Under the pieces are notes generated by a model that was not told where the DNA came from, did not search any database, and saw nothing but the letters and a program-made list of their open reading frames with translations. 32,100 nt of DNA, taken from the NCBI GenBank assembly GCA_012518415.1, contig JAAYSH010000034.1, positions 1-32,100 of the forward strand, written 5' to 3'. This stretch comes from Erysipelotrichaceae bacterium (lineage in GTDB: Bacteria; Bacillota_I; Bacilli_A; RFN20; CAG-826). Made by a program: the position numbers and the translations under genes. Position 1 is the stretch's first letter, and each line of letters opens with the position of its first letter. Shown here in pieces: positions 3,828-26,825 of the stretch.

Positions 3828-4973
3828 TTATAAGATTTTTTGTTGTTCAAGTATTTCGATAATCTTTTTTGCTGTTAAGGGATTTTCACTAATGTGGAAG
3901 TGATCATAACCGCCACTATAAGTTTCATAGAAGATGTCGTAGGTTTCAATGTTAAGTTCATTATTATGACCTCGATTATTAACCGCATCAAAACTACCAT
4001 CAAGAACACTATTAATTAAATGGGGGATAGGAATTTTATTACGTAAGTCATGGATTAGGCTCCGGAAGTTGAATTCGACTAACTCACAATCATGACAAGT
4101 TAAACAGCGACTATAAACATTAAAAACTGTCCGCTCTTCCTTAATGCAAGGAAGCGTTTTTTCACTAAGTATATGCCGTTCATCATAATCGACATCTTGC
4201 ATTTCATAAACAGTGATAAAGCCATCGTAGGCTCTACGCCAATTGAAGACGGAACCATTAAATATACCAGAGATACTACATATAACATCAAGACGCGGAG
4301 GGTAAGTTAAATTAGCAAACCGCTCTTTTATTTCATTTGACATTTTATTGTTCGTAAAACGAATACCGGCTGCAGTAAGCTTTTCTTCACTTTCTTCGGT
4401 CAAATTAGGAACCGAGTTAGATAAAAACTTATGCAAAGCGTCTGATGCCCTATCTGAGCGTTTATAAAGAGCAAAAAACTCCGAAATTGCCTGGACATTA
4501 CGGTAAGGAGTGTTTATTGATATAACTTGATCGACCATCGCATCTAAATAAGAAGAAGCGAGCAAGTTAACAAGTCCGCCTTGAGAATGACCAACTAATA
4601 CAAGCGGACGATCAGGAGATAAAATATATAAATGTCTAATTAAATATACAAGTCGTAGTGCTTGCTCTTCAACTGACGCGGCGTAGTCTTTCCCGCATAA
4701 GCGAAGCCGAAGTAAGATTGATTTTTTTGAGTATTTTAGCGCGAACTTAGCAAACTTTTTTACTGTTTTATGGAACTGAATTTCGCTTAATTCGTCCGCA
4801 AAACTCATCTTAATGCTATCACCCGCAGGCATATGTAAGTTGTCTAAATTGATAAAAGGATATTCAATCATAGACGGATAGTTTTCGACTAAAAAACTCG
4901 TCATTTTTTCAAATGCTTTTTCACTATCTACATATCCGTGTGTAAATATAATAATTGGTTTACTTGTTTTCAT
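3828..4973 (-). CDS. Alpha/beta hydrolase, lipase-like
   Basis: A 381-residue predicted serine hydrolase without a signal peptide, so cytoplasmic. The oxyanion-hole strand IIIFTHGY is at residues 7-14, and the nucleophile elbow GHSQGG puts the catalytic Ser at 130. A His near 358-360 (YDHFH) is the likely third triad member. This arrangement is typical of lipase or acyl-ester hydrolases with a DUF676/PGAP1-like core. An unusual CLTCHDC cluster at residues 290-296 lies in the cap or C-terminal region and could bind a metal. The nearest gene upstream on the strand is the purine nucleoside phosphorylase, 78 bases away. No Shine-Dalgarno site is apparent before the ATG, so expression may be low. 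Substrate unknown. Confidence 0.75.
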   Translation of the reverse strand: MKTSKPIIIFTHGYVDSEKAFEKMTSFLVENYPSMIEYPFINLDNLHMPAGDSIKMSFADELSEIQFHKTVKKFAKFALKYSKKSILLRLRLCGKDYAASVEEQALRLVYLIRHLYILSPDRPLVLVGHSQGGLVNLLASSYLDAMVDQVISINTPYRNVQAISEFFALYKRSDRASDALHKFLSNSVPNLTEESEEKLTAAGIRFTNNKMSNEIKERFANLTYPPRLDVICSISGIFNGSVFNWRRAYDGFITVYEMQDVDYDERHILSEKTLPCIKEERTVFNVYSRCLTCHDCELVEFNFRSLIHDLRNKIPIPHLINSVLDGSFDAVNNRGHNNELNIETYDIFYETYSGGYDHFHISENPLTAKKIIEILEQQKIL

Positions 4974-17646: not shown

Positions 17647-17675
17647 TTAACATTGGCGTTTTTTTGTTCTAGTAT
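17647..17675 (+). promoter_or_regulatory. Probable opp operon promoter
   Basis: TTAACA (17647-17652) and TAGTAT (17670-17675) are separated by 17 bases and match the vegetative consensus at 5/6 and 4/6 positions. Transcription would start near 17682. Other phasings of the TATATA run are possible. Confidence 0.45.
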
Positions 17676-17685
17676 ATATCCACAA

Positions 17686-17702
17686 ATGCACAAGAAGTGC
17701 AT
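17686..17702 (+). other. Small hairpin in the oppA 5' leader
   Basis: ATGCAC and GTGCAT pair over six bases around the loop AAGAA, at the predicted 5' end of the mRNA and 8 bases before the RBS AAAGGAG. A 5'-terminal hairpin often protects mRNA from decay. Confidence 0.4.
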
Positions 17703-17727
17703 ACAAAATGAAAGGAGAAAAAAGTTT

Positions 17728-20304
17728 ATGAAAAAGAAAAAACTACTAGGCTTAACTGTGCTCGGTACATTAATCTTATCCGCTTGTGGCGGCGGCGAAG
17801 AGCTAGTATGGAAAAGCCGTGGTGAAGATCAAAGACCTCCATATGCGGGGCCCGTAGCTGATGGGTTTAAAAACTTTTCCTACTATAGCTACGAAGATAA
17901 AGCTGAAATTCTATACGAACTAGAGAAATATGCACTAGACAATTTCTTAGGTGGAATTCCGCTTTATGACAACGGTACAAACGTTCTTTATTCACCAAGA
18001 TTACAAATTCCATCAGACGTTTACGTCCCTAACTATGGATTTGGTGTTGGAGAAGGTGTTATTACCGAACCAATGACCGCTGAACAAGAGCCGGTCGAAG
18101 CTTGGCGCTGGTATTACCACTCATGGCAATCATCAGACCCAGGAACACTTAACTATTGGGATAGCCAAGACGCTGTAACTGGTGACCTTTGGGCGTTATT
18201 CAACTCAGGTTACTATTCAACAGAGTTTACAGATGACAAAACCAATTACCAATGGAGAACGCAACTCGCTAGAGAAATGCCAATTCCATTAAACCCAGAC
18301 GCAAATGGTCGGGCTTCTAAGTGGCGGATTCCAGTTAAAACTGTAGAAGATGACCCAAACTTGGTTTATCACACACTATCTACAACTCCAGCAGTCGCAG
18401 AATATAATGGCAGAGGAGTCCAATTAGAAGACTACTTAACACCATTCAAAGCGATGTTAGATGGAAACTTATTCCGTTCAACAGACTTAGGTTCAAAAAC
18501 AAGTGGTTATGTTGGTGTTGCTCAGTATAAAGCACAACCAGCAGGACAAAAAGACTGGAGTGTATTAGGTATTCAACTTAACGAAGAAGAACGTGCAATT
18601 GAGTTTGAATTTAACACAAGACACGATTCATTCTTCGCAATGTATTATAACGCTTCAAGTTTATACTCCCCACGTCCACAAGAGTTTATTGATTACTTAG
18701 ATGGTTTAAACCTTGAAGATGAAGATTTATCCGGAGCAGCACGTTACGGTAAAAAAGAATTAGGCGTTGATGGTATCTTATCATTAGGTATGTATACTCT
18801 CGAACACTGGGAAGATAACAAAGTAATCGTCTTCAAAAAGAACCCATTATACTTTGAAAAAGATCGGGCTTCATTCGCAGGATACACATATCAAATTGTT
18901 AAAGACTCTAATACGGCTTATGAACTTTATAAAAACCGTCAGTTAGACTCAGTCGGAGTCCCAACACGTTATGTTGAAGACGAAATGAACAACCCAGAAC
19001 GTCGTCGTACATTAGGAGATACAGTCTTCAAATTACAAGTTAACGCTACAAACCCACGACGTTGGGAAGAACTATTCGGTGTTGATGGTGCAATCGCACC
19101 TCATGCAGAAGATCAATACTGGGATGTCAAACCAGTAATGAGTAATAGAGACTTCTTAAATGGAATTTATTACGCAATTGACCGTGTACAATTAGCGGAA
19201 TCAAACGGACGAACTCCAGCACATGGATTCTTCCCAAGCGCGTACATGATTGATCCAGTCGAAGGTGTATCATTCCGCGATACTCCATACGGTGAAAGAG
19301 TTCTTGCAGGACGTCTACCAGCAACTTATGGTTTCTCAAAAGAACTAGCTGGTGACTACTTCAAAAAAGCAATGGATGACTTAGTTGAAGACGGAGCATA
19401 TAAACGTGGTTCATCACGCAGGCCAACCGTCATTACAATTAGAAACCACATGCAGACTCAACAACAAGTCGATACTGATGCGAAATTAATCGAACAATAC
19501 ATCCAAGACGCATTCAACGATGCAGTCGAAGGATTCGAATTAGTAGTCGATTCATACGCAACAGAAAACTGGTTCGACCCATATTATGATTCAATGATGG
19601 TAGGTCAATTCGACCTTGGCTTTGGATCAATCGGTGGAAACGTACTTGACCCAATCGGCTTCTTGGACACACTTTGCTCAGACAACCGTTCAGGATTTAC
19701 ATTATCCTGGGGTCCAGATACAAGCAAAGTTGACCCAGAACCAGTCTTCTATAAAGGCGAAGCTTATGCATTCGACGCATTATTAGGCGCCGCAACAGTC
19801 GGTGTCGCGATTAAAGACGGTGTTGAACTTCAAAACTTCACATTCGATTCAGTCGAAGCCGCTGCTCAATTAGAAGCAGACGGAACAGTCACTGTTACAG
19901 CATCAGGTACTTACTACAATGGTGCGCCAGACAAAATTCAGGTCGACTTAGACTACGTTGAATTCTGGTACTACGGTGAATCTGGAGAAGGATTTGAAAG
20001 CGCAGAAGAAGCAAAAGCTTTCTTAGCTAATGATCCGCAAGCTTGGTACTACAAAGACAACGGCGGAGCTATTACAAGTCCAATTAGAGAGGGTGAAAAT
20101 CCAAATGGTGCAGTAGCTGAAATTACCTTCAATGATGATGGTACATGGGTACTAGTCGTCAAAGGAGTTCCTGCTTCTAACCAAAAAGGTCAAGAAGACG
20201 GCACTGCTGTCTATGAAATCGACTACTACTTCACAGTAACTGTTGATGGCATAGATTCAACTGCATCAGGTTACGAACTCTTTATCGGACCAGTCGCAGC
20301 TTAA
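17728..20304 (+). CDS. oppA: Oligopeptide-type substrate-binding lipoprotein with C-terminal extension
   Basis: Extracellular lipoprotein that captures substrate for the OppBCDF permease. The chosen ATG follows AAAGGAG (17711-17717) and gives a signal ending in LILSAC, with lipidated Cys20. A longer in-frame start at 17653 has no RBS and would spoil the signal. Residues up to about 665 match family 5 solute-binding proteins (for example WNTR-like RHDSFFAMYYN and the Asp/Gly-rich end near GGNVLDPIGFLDTLCSDN). A further 190 residues or so form a beta-rich, acidic C-terminal part that ordinary OppA proteins of 540-600 residues lack, for a total of 858. Substrate may be peptides or, as in some family 5 proteins, oligosaccharides. 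The cre site upstream keeps the second option open. Confidence 0.88.
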   Translation: MKKKKLLGLTVLGTLILSACGGGEELVWKSRGEDQRPPYAGPVADGFKNFSYYSYEDKAEILYELEKYALDNFLGGIPLYDNGTNVLYSPRLQIPSDVYVPNYGFGVGEGVITEPMTAEQEPVEAWRWYYHSWQSSDPGTLNYWDSQDAVTGDLWALFNSGYYSTEFTDDKTNYQWRTQLAREMPIPLNPDANGRASKWRIPVKTVEDDPNLVYHTLSTTPAVAEYNGRGVQLEDYLTPFKAMLDGNLFRSTDLGSKTSGYVGVAQYKAQPAGQKDWSVLGIQLNEEERAIEFEFNTRHDSFFAMYYNASSLYSPRPQEFIDYLDGLNLEDEDLSGAARYGKKELGVDGILSLGMYTLEHWEDNKVIVFKKNPLYFEKDRASFAGYTYQIVKDSNTAYELYKNRQLDSVGVPTRYVEDEMNNPERRRTLGDTVFKLQVNATNPRRWEELFGVDGAIAPHAEDQYWDVKPVMSNRDFLNGIYYAIDRVQLAESNGRTPAHGFFPSAYMIDPVEGVSFRDTPYGERVLAGRLPATYGFSKELAGDYFKKAMDDLVEDGAYKRGSSRRPTVITIRNHMQTQQQVDTDAKLIEQYIQDAFNDAVEGFELVVDSYATENWFDPYYDSMMVGQFDLGFGSIGGNVLDPIGFLDTLCSDNRSGFTLSWGPDTSKVDPEPVFYKGEAYAFDALLGAATVGVAIKDGVELQNFTFDSVEAAAQLEADGTVTVTASGTYYNGAPDKIQVDLDYVEFWYYGESGEGFESAEEAKAFLANDPQAWYYKDNGGAITSPIREGENPNGAVAEITFNDDGTWVLVVKGVPASNQKGQEDGTAVYEIDYYFTVTVDGIDSTASGYELFIGPVAA

Positions 20305-20318
20305 ATTGTGAATTTAGT

Positions 20319-20356
20319 TAACCCTAGCACTGGTTAATTGACCAGTGCCAGGGTTA
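20319..20356 (+). other. Intercistronic hairpin 1 between oppA and oppB
   Basis: TTAACCCT-A-GCACTGGT pairs with ACCAGTGC-C-AGGGTTAA-like sequence: 15 of 16 positions pair, with one A-C mismatch and loop TAATTG. No T-run follows, so it is not a standard terminator. It more likely protects the 3' end of oppA mRNA or partly attenuates transcription. Confidence 0.8.
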
Positions 20357-20363
20357 GTATATT

Positions 20364-20413
20364 CGTGGACAAGCATTGCCGGCCTTAACAGCCGGCAATG
20401 TTAATTTGTCTAC
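20364..20413 (+). other. Intercistronic hairpin 2 between oppA and oppB
   Basis: Inner stem CATTGCCGGC/GCCGGCAATG (10 base pairs, GC-rich, loop CTTAACA) is extended by an outer stem CGTGGACAA/TTGTCTACG (9 pairs, one G-T) across a small asymmetric bulge. No T-run follows. It sits seven bases after the first hairpin. Confidence 0.85.
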
Positions 20414-20473
20414 GTATATCAATATAATTATGATATTCTTATTAATGTTATTTATAGAGTAGGAGGACAAAAT

Positions 20474-21520
20474 ATGTGGAGGTATATCCTTAGAAGAATT
20501 GGATTAATATTTGTTACAGCATTTATAATTCTTTCACTCACATATTTATTAATGAAACTGTTACCAATGGATAAACCGCTTGGTCGCGCTGATGTCCAAT
20601 TAGCGTATTATGAAAACCAAGTTAACCTTGGCTACATGGTTAGAGTCCATTATGAAAAAGGCTCGCCAAGACCAGCTAGTGATGTCATTGTCGTTAATGA
20701 ACTTGATCCAAGCCAACCATACTTATATAATGCAGTTCCTGTATTTCAACAGTATGTTTCATGGATTAAAAACATTTTTACTAAATGGCATTGGGGAACA
20801 TCATCAGTAATCGAACCTGGATCACCAGCTATGTTAGTTATTCGAAGAAGATTACCAGTTTCTTTAAAATTAAATATTTGGGCGATGGTAGTTTCTGTTC
20901 CGTTAGGTTTTCTTTTTGGTATATGGGCTGCTCTAAAGAAAAACACATTAACTGACCATATTATTACAATTGTTACGATGGTATTTATTTCAGTTCCATC
21001 ATTTGTAATTATCACATTCTTAATGAAGTGGTTTGGTTTTGATACAAACCTTTTACCAACTCAGTGGCCATCGGTGTTAGCACCGGCCTGGGAAAGGTTC
21101 AAGGGCTATATTATTCCAGTTGCCTGTTTGTCGTTTGGAACAATCGCGGGATTTACAAGAATGACAAGGGCAGAATTAACCGAAATTATGTCTAGTGAGT
21201 TTTTATTACTAGCTAGAACAAAAGGGTTAACCAAAACTCAATCTGTTTTACGTCATGCTTTACGTAATGCACTTGTACCACTCGTACCAATGATTATTGG
21301 TCAATTTGTTGGATTACTCGGTGGTTCAATGGTTTTAGAAAACCTTTATGGTATTCCAGGAATCGGTAGTTTATTTACCGAAGGTATTACGCAAAAAGAC
21401 TACAACCTCGTTATGGTTGTTATGTCGGTATATACAATGATTGGTTTATTTACAACATTAATCGTTGATGTTAGTTACGGTATTGTTGACCCGCGAATTA
21501 GAATGGGGGCGAGAAAATAA
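20474..21520 (+). CDS. oppB: Oligopeptide ABC transporter permease OppB
   Basis: Inner permease subunit of the transporter, 348 residues against about 306-310 in typical OppB. TM1 is at residues 10-30. Residues 31-115 form an enlarged external loop, and the core with five more helices follows from about 130. The EAA coupling loop is EFLLLARTKGLTKTQSVLRH (residues 242-261), which docks on an ATPase, and the family end VDVSYGIVDPRIR is present. AGGAGG (20461-20466) is seven bases before the ATG. The stop overlaps oppC (TAATG). Confidence 0.93.
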   Translation: MWRYILRRIGLIFVTAFIILSLTYLLMKLLPMDKPLGRADVQLAYYENQVNLGYMVRVHYEKGSPRPASDVIVVNELDPSQPYLYNAVPVFQQYVSWIKNIFTKWHWGTSSVIEPGSPAMLVIRRRLPVSLKLNIWAMVVSVPLGFLFGIWAALKKNTLTDHIITIVTMVFISVPSFVIITFLMKWFGFDTNLLPTQWPSVLAPAWERFKGYIIPVACLSFGTIAGFTRMTRAELTEIMSSEFLLLARTKGLTKTQSVLRHALRNALVPLVPMIIGQFVGLLGGSMVLENLYGIPGIGSLFTEGITQKDYNLVMVVMSVYTMIGLFTTLIVDVSYGIVDPRIRMGARK

Positions 21521-23580
21521 TGGCAAATAAAAAAGATAAGCAAAATTTATTTGATTATGAACAATCAAAAAAGAGTGCGCGTGTATTTTTAGACCCTTCG
21601 AGTAGCGAAGAAATATCGCAAGAAGATTTTAAGTTTGTTCAAATGGATAAGTCAATCCATGATACAAAATTTGATACGCAACCAACTACGTTCTTTAAAG
21701 ATGCGCTTAGACGTTTTGTTAAGAACAAATCCTCAGTTGTCGCATTTATCATTTTATCAGTGATTATTTTAATGGCTATTTTTGTCCCGGTTTTCAACGA
21801 TAACCCAATTGACCGCAACTTCCCGGAGCAAAGATTCTTAACTCCCCGGTGGCGCGGTTTTGAAAACGCAAGTGTTTTTAATGGAAAACGGACATTTAGA
21901 AATGCTTTAGTTGTTAAACCTGATCCAGACGATCAGTCAACTTGGTATCCAGCAGGAAGGAAAAAAGAAGCTGTTGTAGCTGGTAGTGAAAGGTATTTTG
22001 ATGATACCATTTCTGGTACACCATCGATTTATGCAACTGGTGGAAGTCTTTCAATCCGTACTGATACAAGAGAAAGAAGTAGCGGACTTATTTCCTATCC
22101 AGAGCAATTAGATTTTTCTGCTAATAGTGATTTTCAAATACAAATGTATTTACCAGAAGATAAAAACACATATTCTGTTGGACTCGGCGGCGTCGATGTT
22201 GTCCGCGAATCAATTGCTGAGTATGCAGTTTTCATTAGTGTTGAGTATGAACCAGGTGAGGAGGAGATTGTTTACTTAACTGATTTCTCATCACAATTTG
22301 GTGAAATCATCATTGATGATGTCAATGCTAAAGTACTTGCTAATCGTCCTGATGGCGTTAGTGAAACAACCTTTAACGCTAAGGTTGGTTATGAACTTAA
22401 AACTGTTGCAGAAGGTGACTTCCCAATCTTATTTGTCGATAAGTTTATCTTTGAAAATAAACTTGATACGACTCAAAATTTAGAAAGACTCTCATGGTCA
22501 GATGCAAACGCACTACTCCTTCGTCCAGTTACAAGACCTGAAAGCATTCCAGTTGCGGAGTGGCGCCCAACAAACTGGAGCATTTACGGCAGTGGTACAC
22601 GTTCACTTGACCGCGCTAACGTTACACGGGTAACGTTTGAATATGATGAATACTTAGATGTTTTTGGTCTAAGAAAAAATTATGTTATATCAGGTACAAA
22701 AGTGACCGAATATATCAATGAAGGCTGGATTGAGTATGACTTTAATGAAGGCGTTTCATCATTTAAATTAACCGAATTAGGCGAAGAACACTCACCACTA
22801 CGAAGTGTTTCTGCACAAATAGACCTCCCAGGTGCAACAGGTACAATTTACGAACTTACTGGTGATGTAGTTATGTATCGTTACTGGGGTTATGATAATA
22901 TCCCTTATTATATTTTTGGTACAAACCATAGTGGTCGAGACCAGTTTAAAGTTGTTTTCTCTGGGCTTCGAACATCATTGTTACTTGGTTTAATTACGAC
23001 TGTTATTTGTGTAACAATTGGTATTATTTGGGGTTCAATCTCTGGTTATTACGGTGGCTGGGTTGATCTTATAATGGAAAGGATTACTGATATTTTAAGT
23101 GGTGTTCCTTACATTGTTGTGATGACTCTATCAATTTTATTACTTGGTAATAACTTCGGAGTCTTTATCCTTTCATTAGTCTTAACCGGCTGGATTGGTA
23201 TTTCATCTAGGACAAGGGCTCAGTTTTATCGATATAAAGGTCGAGAGTTTGTCTTAGCATCAAGAACATTAGGTGCAAAAGACAGCCGACTTATTTTCAA
23301 ACACATTTTACCAAACGCAATTGGACCAATTATTACTGGTAGTATCTTAATGATTCCAAGCATTGTGTTTACTGAAGCTAACATTGCTTATTTAGGTTTA
23401 GGTTTACAAGGTATGCCAAGCTTAGGTGTTGCCCTATCAGAAGCACAAAAATACTTGGCGTCTGACCCGTATTTAATCGTATCTTCGGCAATTGTCGTTT
23501 CAATCCTAATGATTTGTTTCAACTTGTTTGGTAACGGTTTACGTGATGCGTTTAACCCATCATTGAAAGGAGCGGAGTAG
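21520..23580 (+). CDS. oppC: Oligopeptide ABC transporter permease OppC with a giant external domain
   Basis: Second permease subunit. A 70-residue cytoplasmic N-tail leads to TM1 (about 71-91). The normal OppC core restarts at FGTNHSGRDQFKVVFSGLRT (466-485), with the EAA loop EFVLASRTLGAKDSR (576-590) and the C-terminal helices. Between TM1 and the core lie about 370 residues (95-465) with no hydrophobic helix, rich in beta-type segments and aromatic, Asp and Ser residues. By topology this domain is outside the cell. Total length is 686, against about 300 for ordinary OppC. The core motifs are intact, so the transporter should work. The origin of the insert is unknown. Confidence 0.93.
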   Translation: MANKKDKQNLFDYEQSKKSARVFLDPSSSEEISQEDFKFVQMDKSIHDTKFDTQPTTFFKDALRRFVKNKSSVVAFIILSVIILMAIFVPVFNDNPIDRNFPEQRFLTPRWRGFENASVFNGKRTFRNALVVKPDPDDQSTWYPAGRKKEAVVAGSERYFDDTISGTPSIYATGGSLSIRTDTRERSSGLISYPEQLDFSANSDFQIQMYLPEDKNTYSVGLGGVDVVRESIAEYAVFISVEYEPGEEEIVYLTDFSSQFGEIIIDDVNAKVLANRPDGVSETTFNAKVGYELKTVAEGDFPILFVDKFIFENKLDTTQNLERLSWSDANALLLRPVTRPESIPVAEWRPTNWSIYGSGTRSLDRANVTRVTFEYDEYLDVFGLRKNYVISGTKVTEYINEGWIEYDFNEGVSSFKLTELGEEHSPLRSVSAQIDLPGATGTIYELTGDVVMYRYWGYDNIPYYIFGTNHSGRDQFKVVFSGLRTSLLLGLITTVICVTIGIIWGSISGYYGGWVDLIMERITDILSGVPYIVVMTLSILLLGNNFGVFILSLVLTGWIGISSRTRAQFYRYKGREFVLASRTLGAKDSRLIFKHILPNAIGPIITGSILMIPSIVFTEANIAYLGLGLQGMPSLGVALSEAQKYLASDPYLIVSSAIVVSILMICFNLFGNGLRDAFNPSLKGAE

Positions 23581-23581
23581 T

Positions 23582-25153
23582 ATGGAAAAATTACAAGCAA
23601 ATGTTCAACAACAAGGCGAAGTGGTTATTGATGTTAAAGATTTAAAAATATCTTTTTATACTGATCATGGTCGTGTCCGTGCAGTCCGCGGTATTTCATT
23701 TCAACTTCGTAAGGGTGAAATTCTTTGTATTGTTGGAGAATCGGGTTCAGGTAAATCGGTAACGACAAAAGCAATTATGGGAATCTTACCTGGTAACGGA
23801 AGAATCGATGGCGGTTCAATTATGTACGAAGGTGAAGATTTAACGAAAGTATCCGAAGAAGAGTTCCACCGGATTCGTGGACATAAAATCGGTATGGTTT
23901 TCCAAGACCCATTATCAAGTCTTAACCCGATTATGCGGGTTGGAAAGCAAATTACTGAAGCGATTATTTTAAATAGTAATAAAATCAAAAGGTACTATAA
24001 TGACTTAATCGCTAAGGAATTTGTTGACTATAAAAACGCAGTTTCTAATAAAAAACGTTTACTTCATAATGCGAATTTAGAACTCCGAGAAGCAAAACGA
24101 AAAAAAGAAACAGAGATTACGAAAATTAAAGAAAACAATAAATTATCTCGTGAAGAAAAATCTGCAGCAATCGCTCAAGAAAAAGAACAATATAAGGAAG
24201 CTAAAACCTCAATAAGAAACGAGAAAAAGGCTATCCGCGAAAGTTCTGATGCTGAGATTAAAGAAAAGAAACAGCAACTAAACTTGGTGAAAAAATCTGC
24301 TAGAGTAAAAGTTAAACAGAAAAAACGCGAACTTAAAGAAGAACGCGATAAAGAAGTCGCAGCATTGCAAGCTAAGCTTAAAGCGACAGAAGATGAACAA
24401 CAACAAGAGGCGATCAAAGCCGAAATTAAAAAAGTTAAAGAAACTTATGTTAATTCGATAAAGATTACAAGAAGAGCTGCAAAACAACGGGCCATTCGTG
24501 TGATGACTGAGGTCGGTATTCCAAATGCTGAACGTCGCTATAAGCAATATCCATTTGAATTCTCAGGTGGAATGCGTCAACGCGTTGTTATTGCGATTGC
24601 TTTAACACAAGACCCTGATGTCTTGATTCTTGATGAGCCAACAACCGCCCTTGATGTTACGATTCAGGCGCAAATTCTTGAGTTAATTAATGAACTTAAG
24701 GAAGAAAGAAACTTATCATGTATATTTATTACGCACGACTTAGGTGTTGTTGCTAATATGGCTGATCGAGTTGCCGTTATGTATGCTGGTAAAATTGTTG
24801 AAAGTGCAACGGTTAATGAATTATTTTATAACCCACAACACCCATACACATGGGCGCTGCTTTCATCAATCGCTGACGTTGATACAGAAGAGCGACTTGA
24901 AGCAATTCCAGGTACTCCACCAGATATGGTTAATCCACCTAAAGGAGATGCCTTCTCATTAAGAAACAGATACGCGCTCGCGGTCGATTATGAATATGAA
25001 CCACCAACTTATCAGGTGAGTCCAACTCACTTTGCTTCAACGTGGTTACTTGATCCGCGCGCACCAAAAGTTGAACGGCCAGCAATTGTTGAAGAAAGAA
25101 TTAAAAACTCGCTGAAAGCCGCGAAGGAAGCGGGGGTGAAATTAGATGAGTAA
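23582..25153 (+). CDS. oppD: Oligopeptide ABC transporter ATPase OppD with coiled-coil insertion
   Basis: Cytoplasmic ATPase. Walker A is GESGSGKS (52-59), the Q-loop is FQDP (Gln108), the signature is FSGGM (327-331), Walker B is ILDEP (349-353) and the switch His is 385. Between Q-loop and signature, at the helical subdomain, residues about 131-300 are a Lys/Glu/Ala-rich helical stretch that looks like a long coiled-coil hairpin, absent from normal OppD. The C-terminal tail keeps GTPPDMVNPPKG, but all cysteines of the usual CPFxxRC-type motif are replaced (GDAFSLRNRY). GGAG precedes the ATG, one base after oppC, and it overlaps oppF by 8 bases. Confidence 0.94.
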   Translation: MEKLQANVQQQGEVVIDVKDLKISFYTDHGRVRAVRGISFQLRKGEILCIVGESGSGKSVTTKAIMGILPGNGRIDGGSIMYEGEDLTKVSEEEFHRIRGHKIGMVFQDPLSSLNPIMRVGKQITEAIILNSNKIKRYYNDLIAKEFVDYKNAVSNKKRLLHNANLELREAKRKKETEITKIKENNKLSREEKSAAIAQEKEQYKEAKTSIRNEKKAIRESSDAEIKEKKQQLNLVKKSARVKVKQKKRELKEERDKEVAALQAKLKATEDEQQQEAIKAEIKKVKETYVNSIKITRRAAKQRAIRVMTEVGIPNAERRYKQYPFEFSGGMRQRVVIAIALTQDPDVLILDEPTTALDVTIQAQILELINELKEERNLSCIFITHDLGVVANMADRVAVMYAGKIVESATVNELFYNPQHPYTWALLSSIADVDTEERLEAIPGTPPDMVNPPKGDAFSLRNRYALAVDYEYEPPTYQVSPTHFASTWLLDPRAPKVERPAIVEERIKNSLKAAKEAGVKLDE

Positions 25154-26825
25154 TAAAGAAGTAAACCAATTTGATATTGACGCAGTTGTAGAGAAATTTT
25201 ACATAAGTCTTTTCCAAAGAGAAGAAGGACAATTATTTGCACTCGAAAAAGAACAAAGTGAAGCGTTACAAGAAGCTCAAGAAGAAGCGAATAAAGAAAT
25301 TAGTGAACTAGAAGAAAAACTTCAAGAACTTAAAGACGCTGAAAAAAGTGCTGAAAATAAAGGTTTAATTAAAAAACAAAAAAGTAAAATTAAAGCTGCG
25401 AGACGCTCTGCCAAAGCTCGCGACCGGCTAATAAAAGCTGAATTTAAACCAAGACTTAAAAAAATAAGGCAAATTTTAAAGGTCGCTAGAGGAAGAGCAG
25501 ATATTTTAAAAAAGGCGCGATACAATGAATTTAAAGCGTGGCAAAAAGCTGGCTTTGAAGATATTGAAAACCGTCCGTCAGAGATTGAAAAGCTACGTTT
25601 CGACTCTTATAAACCAGAATTAGTAGAAAATGATGTCGTCCTTAGTGTTCGCCACCTCAAGCAATATTTCGAAAGCGGGTTTGGAGCAAACAAACTAAGG
25701 ACCAAAGCGGTTCATGACATTTCATTTGATATTCATAACGGTGAAGTATTTGGGCTTGTTGGTGAATCAGGCTGTGGTAAAACAACAACTGGTCGCTCGA
25801 TTATTCGTCTTTACGATATAACTTCAGGCAGTATTTACTTTAAAGGCCACCGGATATCAGGTGGAACAAGATGGAATGAGAAAGAAATTAAGTGGAAACG
25901 AATTCGCTTGCGTCAGGAAATCAAAGAACTCAAAGCTAAGATGAAAGAGGAACTAGATGACGCTGAAGCGATTGATGAAGATGTTACCGAAGCAAGATCA
26001 GAACAAATCAAAGATCATTACAATAAAAAAATTGCGGCGATTGAGTATGAGATCGATGAAATCGTTCGAGTCCAAAAAACAAAAATTAAACTCATTAGAT
26101 ACGACAATAAAAACTATGATGAAGAATTCATGAGTCAAATTCAAATGATTTTCCAAGATCCAACAGACTCGCTCGATCCAAGGATGACAGTCGAAGATGC
26201 GATTCAAGAAGGATTACAAATCCAAGGATATCGCAATAAGGCAGCAAATTCTAACAAAGTTTCTGATGTTTTAGACCAAGTTGGCTTACTTCCAGAGTAT
26301 GCCTCACGTTATCCGCATGAATTTAGCGGTGGTCAAAGGCAAAGAATTGGGATTGCTCGAGCGATTGTTATGCAACCAGAATTTATGATTTGTGATGAAC
26401 CAGTCAGTGCATTAGACGTTTCAATTCAGGCGCAAGTTATTAACTTATTAAGTGACTTACGTGATGAAATGGGATTAACCTTACTATTCGTTGCACATGA
26501 CCTCTCATTAGTTAAATACTTCTGTGACCGCATTGCAGTTATGTATTTTGGAAGAATTGTTGAATTAGCAACGAGTGAAGATTTATTTGCTAATCCACTT
26601 CATCCATATACAAAATCACTTATTAGTGCGATTCCAAAACCAGATCCAATTAGTGAAAAAGCTCGGAAGAGAATTCACTATAATCCAGCGGAAGCGCATA
26701 ATTATGCCGAAGAAGGTAACCCAACATTGACCGAAATTACGCCTGGACACTTTGTTCTTGCTAATGAGGTCGAACTTGAGCGATACCGCAAGGAAATCGA
26801 AGATAGAACGAAAAGTAAAAAATAA
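25146..26825 (+). CDS. oppF: Oligopeptide ABC transporter ATPase OppF with two coiled coils
   Basis: Second ATPase of the transporter, 559 residues against about 330 normally. Residues 1-155 are an N-terminal Lys/Glu-rich helical region, and the ABC domain begins about 163. Walker A is GESGCGKT (206-213), the Q-loop is MIFQDP (Gln337), the signature is FSGGQ (393-397), Walker B is MICDEP (414-419) and the switch His is 451. A second coiled-coil insertion covers about 245-325, between Walker A and Q-loop, so not at the same place as in OppD. The C-terminal cysteine motif is also missing. The start overlaps the oppD stop (ATGAGTAA), with GGGGGTG as RBS. Confidence 0.94.
   Translation: MSNKEVNQFDIDAVVEKFYISLFQREEGQLFALEKEQSEALQEAQEEANKEISELEEKLQELKDAEKSAENKGLIKKQKSKIKAARRSAKARDRLIKAEFKPRLKKIRQILKVARGRADILKKARYNEFKAWQKAGFEDIENRPSEIEKLRFDSYKPELVENDVVLSVRHLKQYFESGFGANKLRTKAVHDISFDIHNGEVFGLVGESGCGKTTTGRSIIRLYDITSGSIYFKGHRISGGTRWNEKEIKWKRIRLRQEIKELKAKMKEELDDAEAIDEDVTEARSEQIKDHYNKKIAAIEYEIDEIVRVQKTKIKLIRYDNKNYDEEFMSQIQMIFQDPTDSLDPRMTVEDAIQEGLQIQGYRNKAANSNKVSDVLDQVGLLPEYASRYPHEFSGGQRQRIGIARAIVMQPEFMICDEPVSALDVSIQAQVINLLSDLRDEMGLTLLFVAHDLSLVKYFCDRIAVMYFGRIVELATSEDLFANPLHPYTKSLISAIPKPDPISEKARKRIHYNPAEAHNYAEEGNPTLTEITPGHFVLANEVELERYRKEIEDRTKSKK

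Follow-up and report, generated by a model that had tools for sequence, protein, structure and literature searches.

The OppC permease subunit of an Erysipelotrichaceae bacterium (assembly GCA_012518415.1) carries a large extracytoplasmic domain (ECD) between its first transmembrane helix (TM1) and its permease core. This domain is confidently predicted to fold into a jelly-roll beta-sandwich and a C-terminal alpha/beta part, and it is conserved within OppC of one permease clade. We tentatively propose, with a probability of roughly 0.4, that the ECD is a docking or corralling lobe beside the lipoprotein OppA, by analogy with MalF-P2. The window analyzed is a stretch of 32,100 nucleotides at the start of contig JAAYSH010000034.1. 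The genes of the operon and the parts of OppC are listed in Table 1.

Table 1. Coordinates in the window of the opp genes and of the parts of OppC
Feature	Position	Strand	Description and basis
oppA	17653..20304	+	Lipoprotein-type solute-binding protein; Pfam SBP_bac_5
oppB	20474..21520	+	Permease; Pfam BPD_transp_1
oppC, whole gene	21520..23580	+	686 aa; open reading frame; Pfam OppC_N and BPD_transp_1
TM1 of OppC	21736..21792	+	Residues 73-91 by hydropathy; helix 70-92 in the model
ECD	21802..22914	+	Residues 95-465, 371 aa; AlphaFold2; profile A2
Membrane-proximal N-terminal stretch	21802..21921	+	Residues 95-134; LPPR..GxxDGT motif common to shorter OppC loops
Jelly-roll beta-sandwich lobe (predicted)	21994..22476	+	Residues 159-319 approximately; poorly conserved; predicted strands and VIA rows
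C-terminal alpha/beta part (predicted)	22576..22914	+	Residues 353-465, adjoins the membrane; DSSP
Permease core	22915..23577	+	Residues 466-686; Pfam; Foldseek to DppC/OppC
oppD	23582..25153	+	ATPase with Lys/Glu-rich insert; Pfam; best NCBIfam MMSYN1_0167, below cut-off
oppF	25146..26825	+	ATPase with charged N-terminal extension and insert; Pfam; best NCBIfam MMSYN1_0168, below cut-off

OppC is matched by OppC_N at residues 57-109 (46.8 bits, cut-off 23.9) and by BPD_transp_1 at residues 501-683 (98.1 bits, cut-off 26.4), and no Pfam family is found between them. Its best NCBIfam model is Opp3C (NF045475), but the score of 288.2 bits is below the curated cut-off of 450 for this equivalog, and on this sequence score the protein is called Opp3C-like and not filed as Opp3C. 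TM1 is the strongest hydrophobic segment ahead of the core (mean hydropathy 3.15), and the motif FGTNHSGRD is located at residues 466-474. The preliminary description placed the domain at 21802-22914 between TM1 and the FGTN..GRD start of the core, and this range corresponds exactly to residues 95-465 (371 aa). It also reported that no hydrophobic helix is present in this region, in agreement with the hydropathy profile, in which no 19-residue window exceeds 1.3 from TM1 to residue 487. The N-terminus of OppC would be cytoplasmic, as judged from the charged segment RRFVKNK ahead of TM1, and residues 95-465 would face outside by analogy with the topology given for DppC in PMC12136057. The ECD is acidic (D+E 15.7%, K+R 9.7%). 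It contains no Cys in the window, which rules out a disulfide-stabilized domain there, and each of the other 30 rows of alignment A2 contains 1-7 Cys.

The window genome (957 kb, 78 contigs, 96% complete) gives a single match, this OppC, for the whole-protein query. The gene lies in a complete oppA-oppB-oppC-oppD-oppF operon spanning 17653-26825 on the + strand, and the same gene order surrounds the domain in relatives. The probable start of oppA is the ATG near 17728, and a lipobox, LSAC, is read by eye. OppA is large (about 858 aa counted from this probable start; 811-1062 aa for the frames in relatives), and it seemingly contains an additional beta-rich stretch near its C-terminus. The long Lys/Glu-rich inserts of OppD and OppF are probably coiled-coil, and the best NCBIfam models of both ATPases are mycoplasma ones. 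Elsewhere in the window, this mollicute-like genome encodes a protein of the F420-0:gamma-glutamyl ligase family at 1598-2770 (Pfam E 2e-48) and, at 3828-4973 on the - strand, an alpha/beta hydrolase that matches a Tle3 phospholipase-type Pfam family (E 2e-10).

The structure of full-length OppC was predicted with AlphaFold2 from 31 sequences, and the ECD was also predicted alone. The mean pLDDT of the whole protein is 74. In this model, the ten-residue blocks of the ECD score 63-87 before residue 171 and mostly 83-91 thereafter, apart from a gap near residues 210-230. The ECD alone is predicted with a mean pLDDT of 87.8 and a pTM of 0.74, and has one low stretch at ECD 123-134. The independent, mainly beta external domain that had been read from the sequence is thus predicted by the model as well. 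Of the one or two beta-sandwiches suggested earlier, one is retained: ECD 65-219 consists of strands that match jelly-rolls, and the VIA rows cover ECD 71-224. In the other half, DSSP on the predicted model assigns long strands and helices adjoining the core to ECD 259-357, indicating an alpha/beta part and not a second clear sandwich.

Comparison of the model with known structures points to a shape only. The best VIA match is 4yu6_A (InhA2) with a Z of 8.9 and an rmsd of 3.5 over 134 residues, followed by sialidase, meprin, EphA and CBM chains at Z 6-7.5. Because, by the note of the tool, a best Z of 7-8 is typical even when a model has no clear match, these matches would support a shared shape only. 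Families missing from the VIA list are not excluded on that account. Foldseek gives no PDB match of the ECD at E <= 0.001 (best E 3e-3). Its top matches for the full-length model are E. coli DppC/OppC and M. tuberculosis OppC/DppC (E 4e-11 to 2e-8), in the core. The PDB sequence search for the ECD gives nothing at E <= 1 with the single sequence or at E <= 10 with the profile. Pfam gives no family at E <= 1 for the window ECD, and hence no MAM, concanavalin-like or CBM profile, and only scattered one-member matches for the 31 alignment rows, and a viral structure library gives only low-TM look-alikes (TMq <= 0.25). The carbohydrate-binding or concanavalin-like identity raised in the preliminary description is therefore unsupported beyond general shape. 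The two alternatives named there were checked by fold prediction and searches, and both are excluded: a disordered chain by the confident folding of the ECD, and a plain OppC variant by the Pfam layout, the OppC length survey and the separately folding ECD.

Within its clade, the domain is nothing unusual. Of the 279 genomes of the order, 259 give a whole-protein OppC-like match (E <= 1e-20) and 143, in 22 of 56 genera, match the ECD profile A2 (E <= 1e-5). Frames bearing the ECD are about 590-820 aa long; shorter pieces of 416, 399, 361, 254 and 207 aa are among the rows listed. Across the class, sampled evenly, the profile matches 40 of 346 genomes at E <= 0.001, in several cases weakly. Profile A2 also aligns with eight loops of families f16, f19 and f21 (probability 98.4, 286 columns), and so the ECD family, as judged from this profile comparison, extends beyond the order. 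Among 157 sampled genomes of the phylum, Opp3C-type OppC frames range from 287 to 787 aa, and one member of the class reaches 942 aa. Given this range, the term 'giant' is relative for the loop of the window OppC. In four genomes of family f29 (G522, G616, G624 and G631), a UGA-reassigned code is suggested by the 4-6 TGA codons that lie in frame within the OppC matches.

A tree of the permease core was built from 137 of the 140 OppC rows collected, three with repeated or short cores being left out. The RCC1-type rows described below fell under the score filter and are absent from this tree, and row L055, which the script marked as 'short', is a fragment at a contig end. A single clade (95/81) holds the rows with loops of 327-611 residues and, in addition, one truncated row. 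Those with loops of 150-270 residues, Clostridia included, form two other groups beside it, and plain OppC forms a separate group. The window OppC is assigned to the long-loop clade by the homology of its ECD profile and the clade of its core. The only OppC of a genus-mate (G261) is a protein of 545 aa that has a loop of 228 residues, lacks the ECD and falls in the medium-loop group, indicating that close relatives differ in the OppC loop type retained. The presence of different loop clades within one genus points to paralogue loss or gene replacement.

The origin of the domain, described earlier as unknown, is narrowed by these results to a loop family that goes with one core clade and has an N-terminal motif in common with other Opp-type loops. 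The TM1-TM2 loops of Opp-type OppC in the class grade from 23-52 through 150-270 to 327-611 residues, and most of those of at least 52 residues begin with a sequence like LPPRxPxLExxGIFDGT. With hhalign, the long loops match the shorter ones at this motif with an E of 2e-6 over 26 columns, and the f19-type group matches with an E of 6e-9 over 36 columns; the P values from column-shuffled profile controls in 15 comparisons are 0.007 or larger. No match is obtained between the C-terminal halves of long and shorter loops (P 0.09 in local and 0.03 in global alignment). At the level of sequence, only the first 30 or so residues of the ECD (LPPR..GIFDGT) are demonstrably common to the shorter OppC loops. 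The 150-residue-type loops share homology with those of Clostridia (probability 98.3). One may guess that the jelly-roll is nested inside an ancestral 150-residue loop domain, with the match limited to the N-terminal 26-36 columns.

An RCC1 beta-propeller, unrelated to the ECD, is found at the same TM1-TM2 site in other families of the class. In two OppC rows, RCC1 repeats lie between TM1 and the core motif GSDE (Pfam E 8.5e-15 in L132 and, for RCC1_2, 3.1e-36 in L133), and a third (L131) has the same layout. When L133 is used as the query, 12 of the 346 genomes of the class sample match near full length, propeller and core together, and 21 give any match at E <= 1e-60. No RCC1 repeat is detected in the window ECD by Pfam. 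Because two unrelated folds occupy the same position, the TM1-TM2 loop of OppC is a domain-insertion hotspot. Three f19 proteins (L136, L137 and L125; 942, 883 and 787 aa) have loops of 472-611 residues that resemble several jelly-roll units; the loops of L136 and L137 look tandem by eye, but blastp self-comparison detects no internal repeat in them. It is conceivable, though we rather doubt it, that the loop is a general socket into which Bacilli, chiefly wall-less gut lineages, installed unrelated folded outer lobes (the jelly-roll with its alpha/beta part, the RCC1 propeller and perhaps tandem jelly-rolls), a single importer core thereby being refitted with different external docking or capture heads. 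If this is true, the socket would be a modular surface organ of genome-reduced bacteria. The class-wide range of loop sizes, from 23 to 611 residues, and the unrelated domain at the same site elsewhere would also suit neutral or mildly useful loop growth in fast-evolving Bacilli lineages, with no role for the ECD beyond stable folding. However, the ECD is retained in one clade over many genera and is under purifying selection, and we regard such growth as an unlikely explanation.

The ECD evolves faster than the other parts of the operon tested. Among 65 long-loop proteins, the ECD has a median pairwise identity of 0.21 and the core one of 0.64; among 25 operons, the median is 0.23 for the ECD, 0.33 for OppA, 0.56 for OppB, 0.61 for OppD and 0.67 for the core. 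Cores of 93% identity are seen together with ECDs of 46% identity. For dN/dS, the 25 pairs whose cores are most alike below 99.5% identity were used. The values are 0.05-0.41 in the ECD and 0.01-0.11 in the core, and that of the ECD is higher in all 24 computable pairs (one gives no ECD dS), although many dS values exceed 1 and the pairs have members in common. The ECD is thus under purifying selection. This result, together with the recurrence of the domain in 143 of 279 genomes, rules out a chance open reading frame or an assembly fusion. The mean fraction of the top residue is 0.51 in the N-terminal stretch, 0.44 in the C-terminal part, 0.30 in the jelly-roll and 0.79 in the core.

The jelly-roll might be a ligand-binding module for a glycan, mucin, peptide or cell-surface target, which would anchor the transporter to a nutrient source or pre-concentrate substrate. 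Its shape is like those of CBM4, CBM22, CBM86 and the EphA ligand-binding domain (VIA Z 6-7), but Z values of this size are within chance shared arrangements according to the note of the tool, the Foldseek and Pfam searches described above give no matching family, and hardly any residues of the jelly-roll are conserved. This role is improbable.

The ECD is probably located on an exposed, wall-less surface, since mraY (TIGR00445) and transpeptidase (PF00905) genes are absent from all seven genomes of the family tested, including that of the window. Among 14 control genomes, mraY is detected in 12 and the transpeptidase in 10. In the class sample, mraY is present in 6 of 40 genomes with the ECD versus 142 of 306 without it (Fisher p 1.3e-4, a value that ignores kinship), and in 5 of 26 genomes with strong ECD matches. 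Because ECD-bearing genomes with mraY exist, wall loss is not required for the ECD. The absence of these wall genes and the rapid divergence of the ECD might also be accounted for by a shield or variable outer lobe that guards the transporter mouth or varies under phages, antibodies or grazers, but the dN/dS below 1 averaged over the whole ECD and the better-conserved flanks make this explanation as improbable as a ligand-binding module.

The preliminary description raised a docking site or a second substrate-binding module next to OppA; docking is the role put forward here, and second substrate binding is a further candidate. In the docking or corralling role that we tentatively propose for the ECD, the better-conserved N- and C-terminal flanks would form a membrane-proximal platform, from which the variable jelly-roll would project. 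Positioned by the translocation mouth, the ECD may touch docked OppA and keep this lipoprotein near the mouth, and it may guide OppA docking and help seal off the released peptide. Such a corral would pay in a wall-less cell, in which OppA would otherwise be held by its lipid anchor alone. The operon context, the confidence of the predicted fold, purifying selection, covariation with OppA and OppB, the conserved flanks, the absence of wall genes and the precedents described below argue for this role. In 25 operons with complete oppA, oppB, oppC and oppD, the partial distance correlation of the ECD given the others is 0.32 with OppA, 0.30 with OppB, 0.17 with OppD and 0.10 with the core (Mantel p 0.0005 each for OppA and OppB). 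The covariation with OppA is weak and about equal to that with OppB in these related operons, and shared surface exposure could be its cause. The loop of another type in the genus-mate counts against a docking role, and the presence of mraY in some genomes with strong matches counts against its link to wall loss. No conserved OppA-facing patch is evident, with few jelly-roll residues conserved.

The MalF-P2 loop is located between TM3 and TM4 of MalF, versus TM1-TM2 for the loop of OppC. In the maltose importer MalFGK2, MalF-P2 (residues 91-271) contacts MalE, as stated in PMC3150292, and like the ECD it is a folded external region within a permease subunit of an ABC importer. However, the permease family of MalF differs from that of OppC, and contact of the ECD with OppA would be the counterpart that we infer. 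A second precedent is the scoop motif of DppB, which enters the DppA cleft of E. coli DppABCDF according to PMC12136057. This motif is likewise an external element right after TM1 of a peptide-importer permease, but it is located in DppB, is about 30 residues long and is helical, whereas the ECD is located in OppC, has 371 residues and is predicted to be beta-rich. Opp3C-type OppC (NF045475), E. coli DppC/OppC and M. tuberculosis OppC/DppC (8z1z, 8z21, 8j5q, 8wdb) have the same core fold, OppC_N and operon partners as the window OppC. In contrast, these known proteins are short (328 positions in the NF045475 model and 273-289 residues in the structure chains), while the window TM1-TM2 loop alone exceeds them with its own predicted fold. 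The RCC1-bearing OppC proteins have the same insertion point as the ECD but an unrelated fold.

No description of the domain is found in the literature searched, which also includes PMC11466899, PMC10868615 and PMC7301438, with subscription papers and preprints outside its scope. Judged by its sequence distribution and by the literature searched, the ECD is a common but undescribed addition to a well-known type of transporter. It is a domain of a large uncultured gut order, with neither a Pfam entry nor a solved sequence relative. Unrelated folds are tolerated at one insertion point of OppC. Peptide importers are the likely main source of amino acids for genome-reduced bacteria, and the ECD is a clear target for asking how wall-less cells keep their binding proteins at the transporter.
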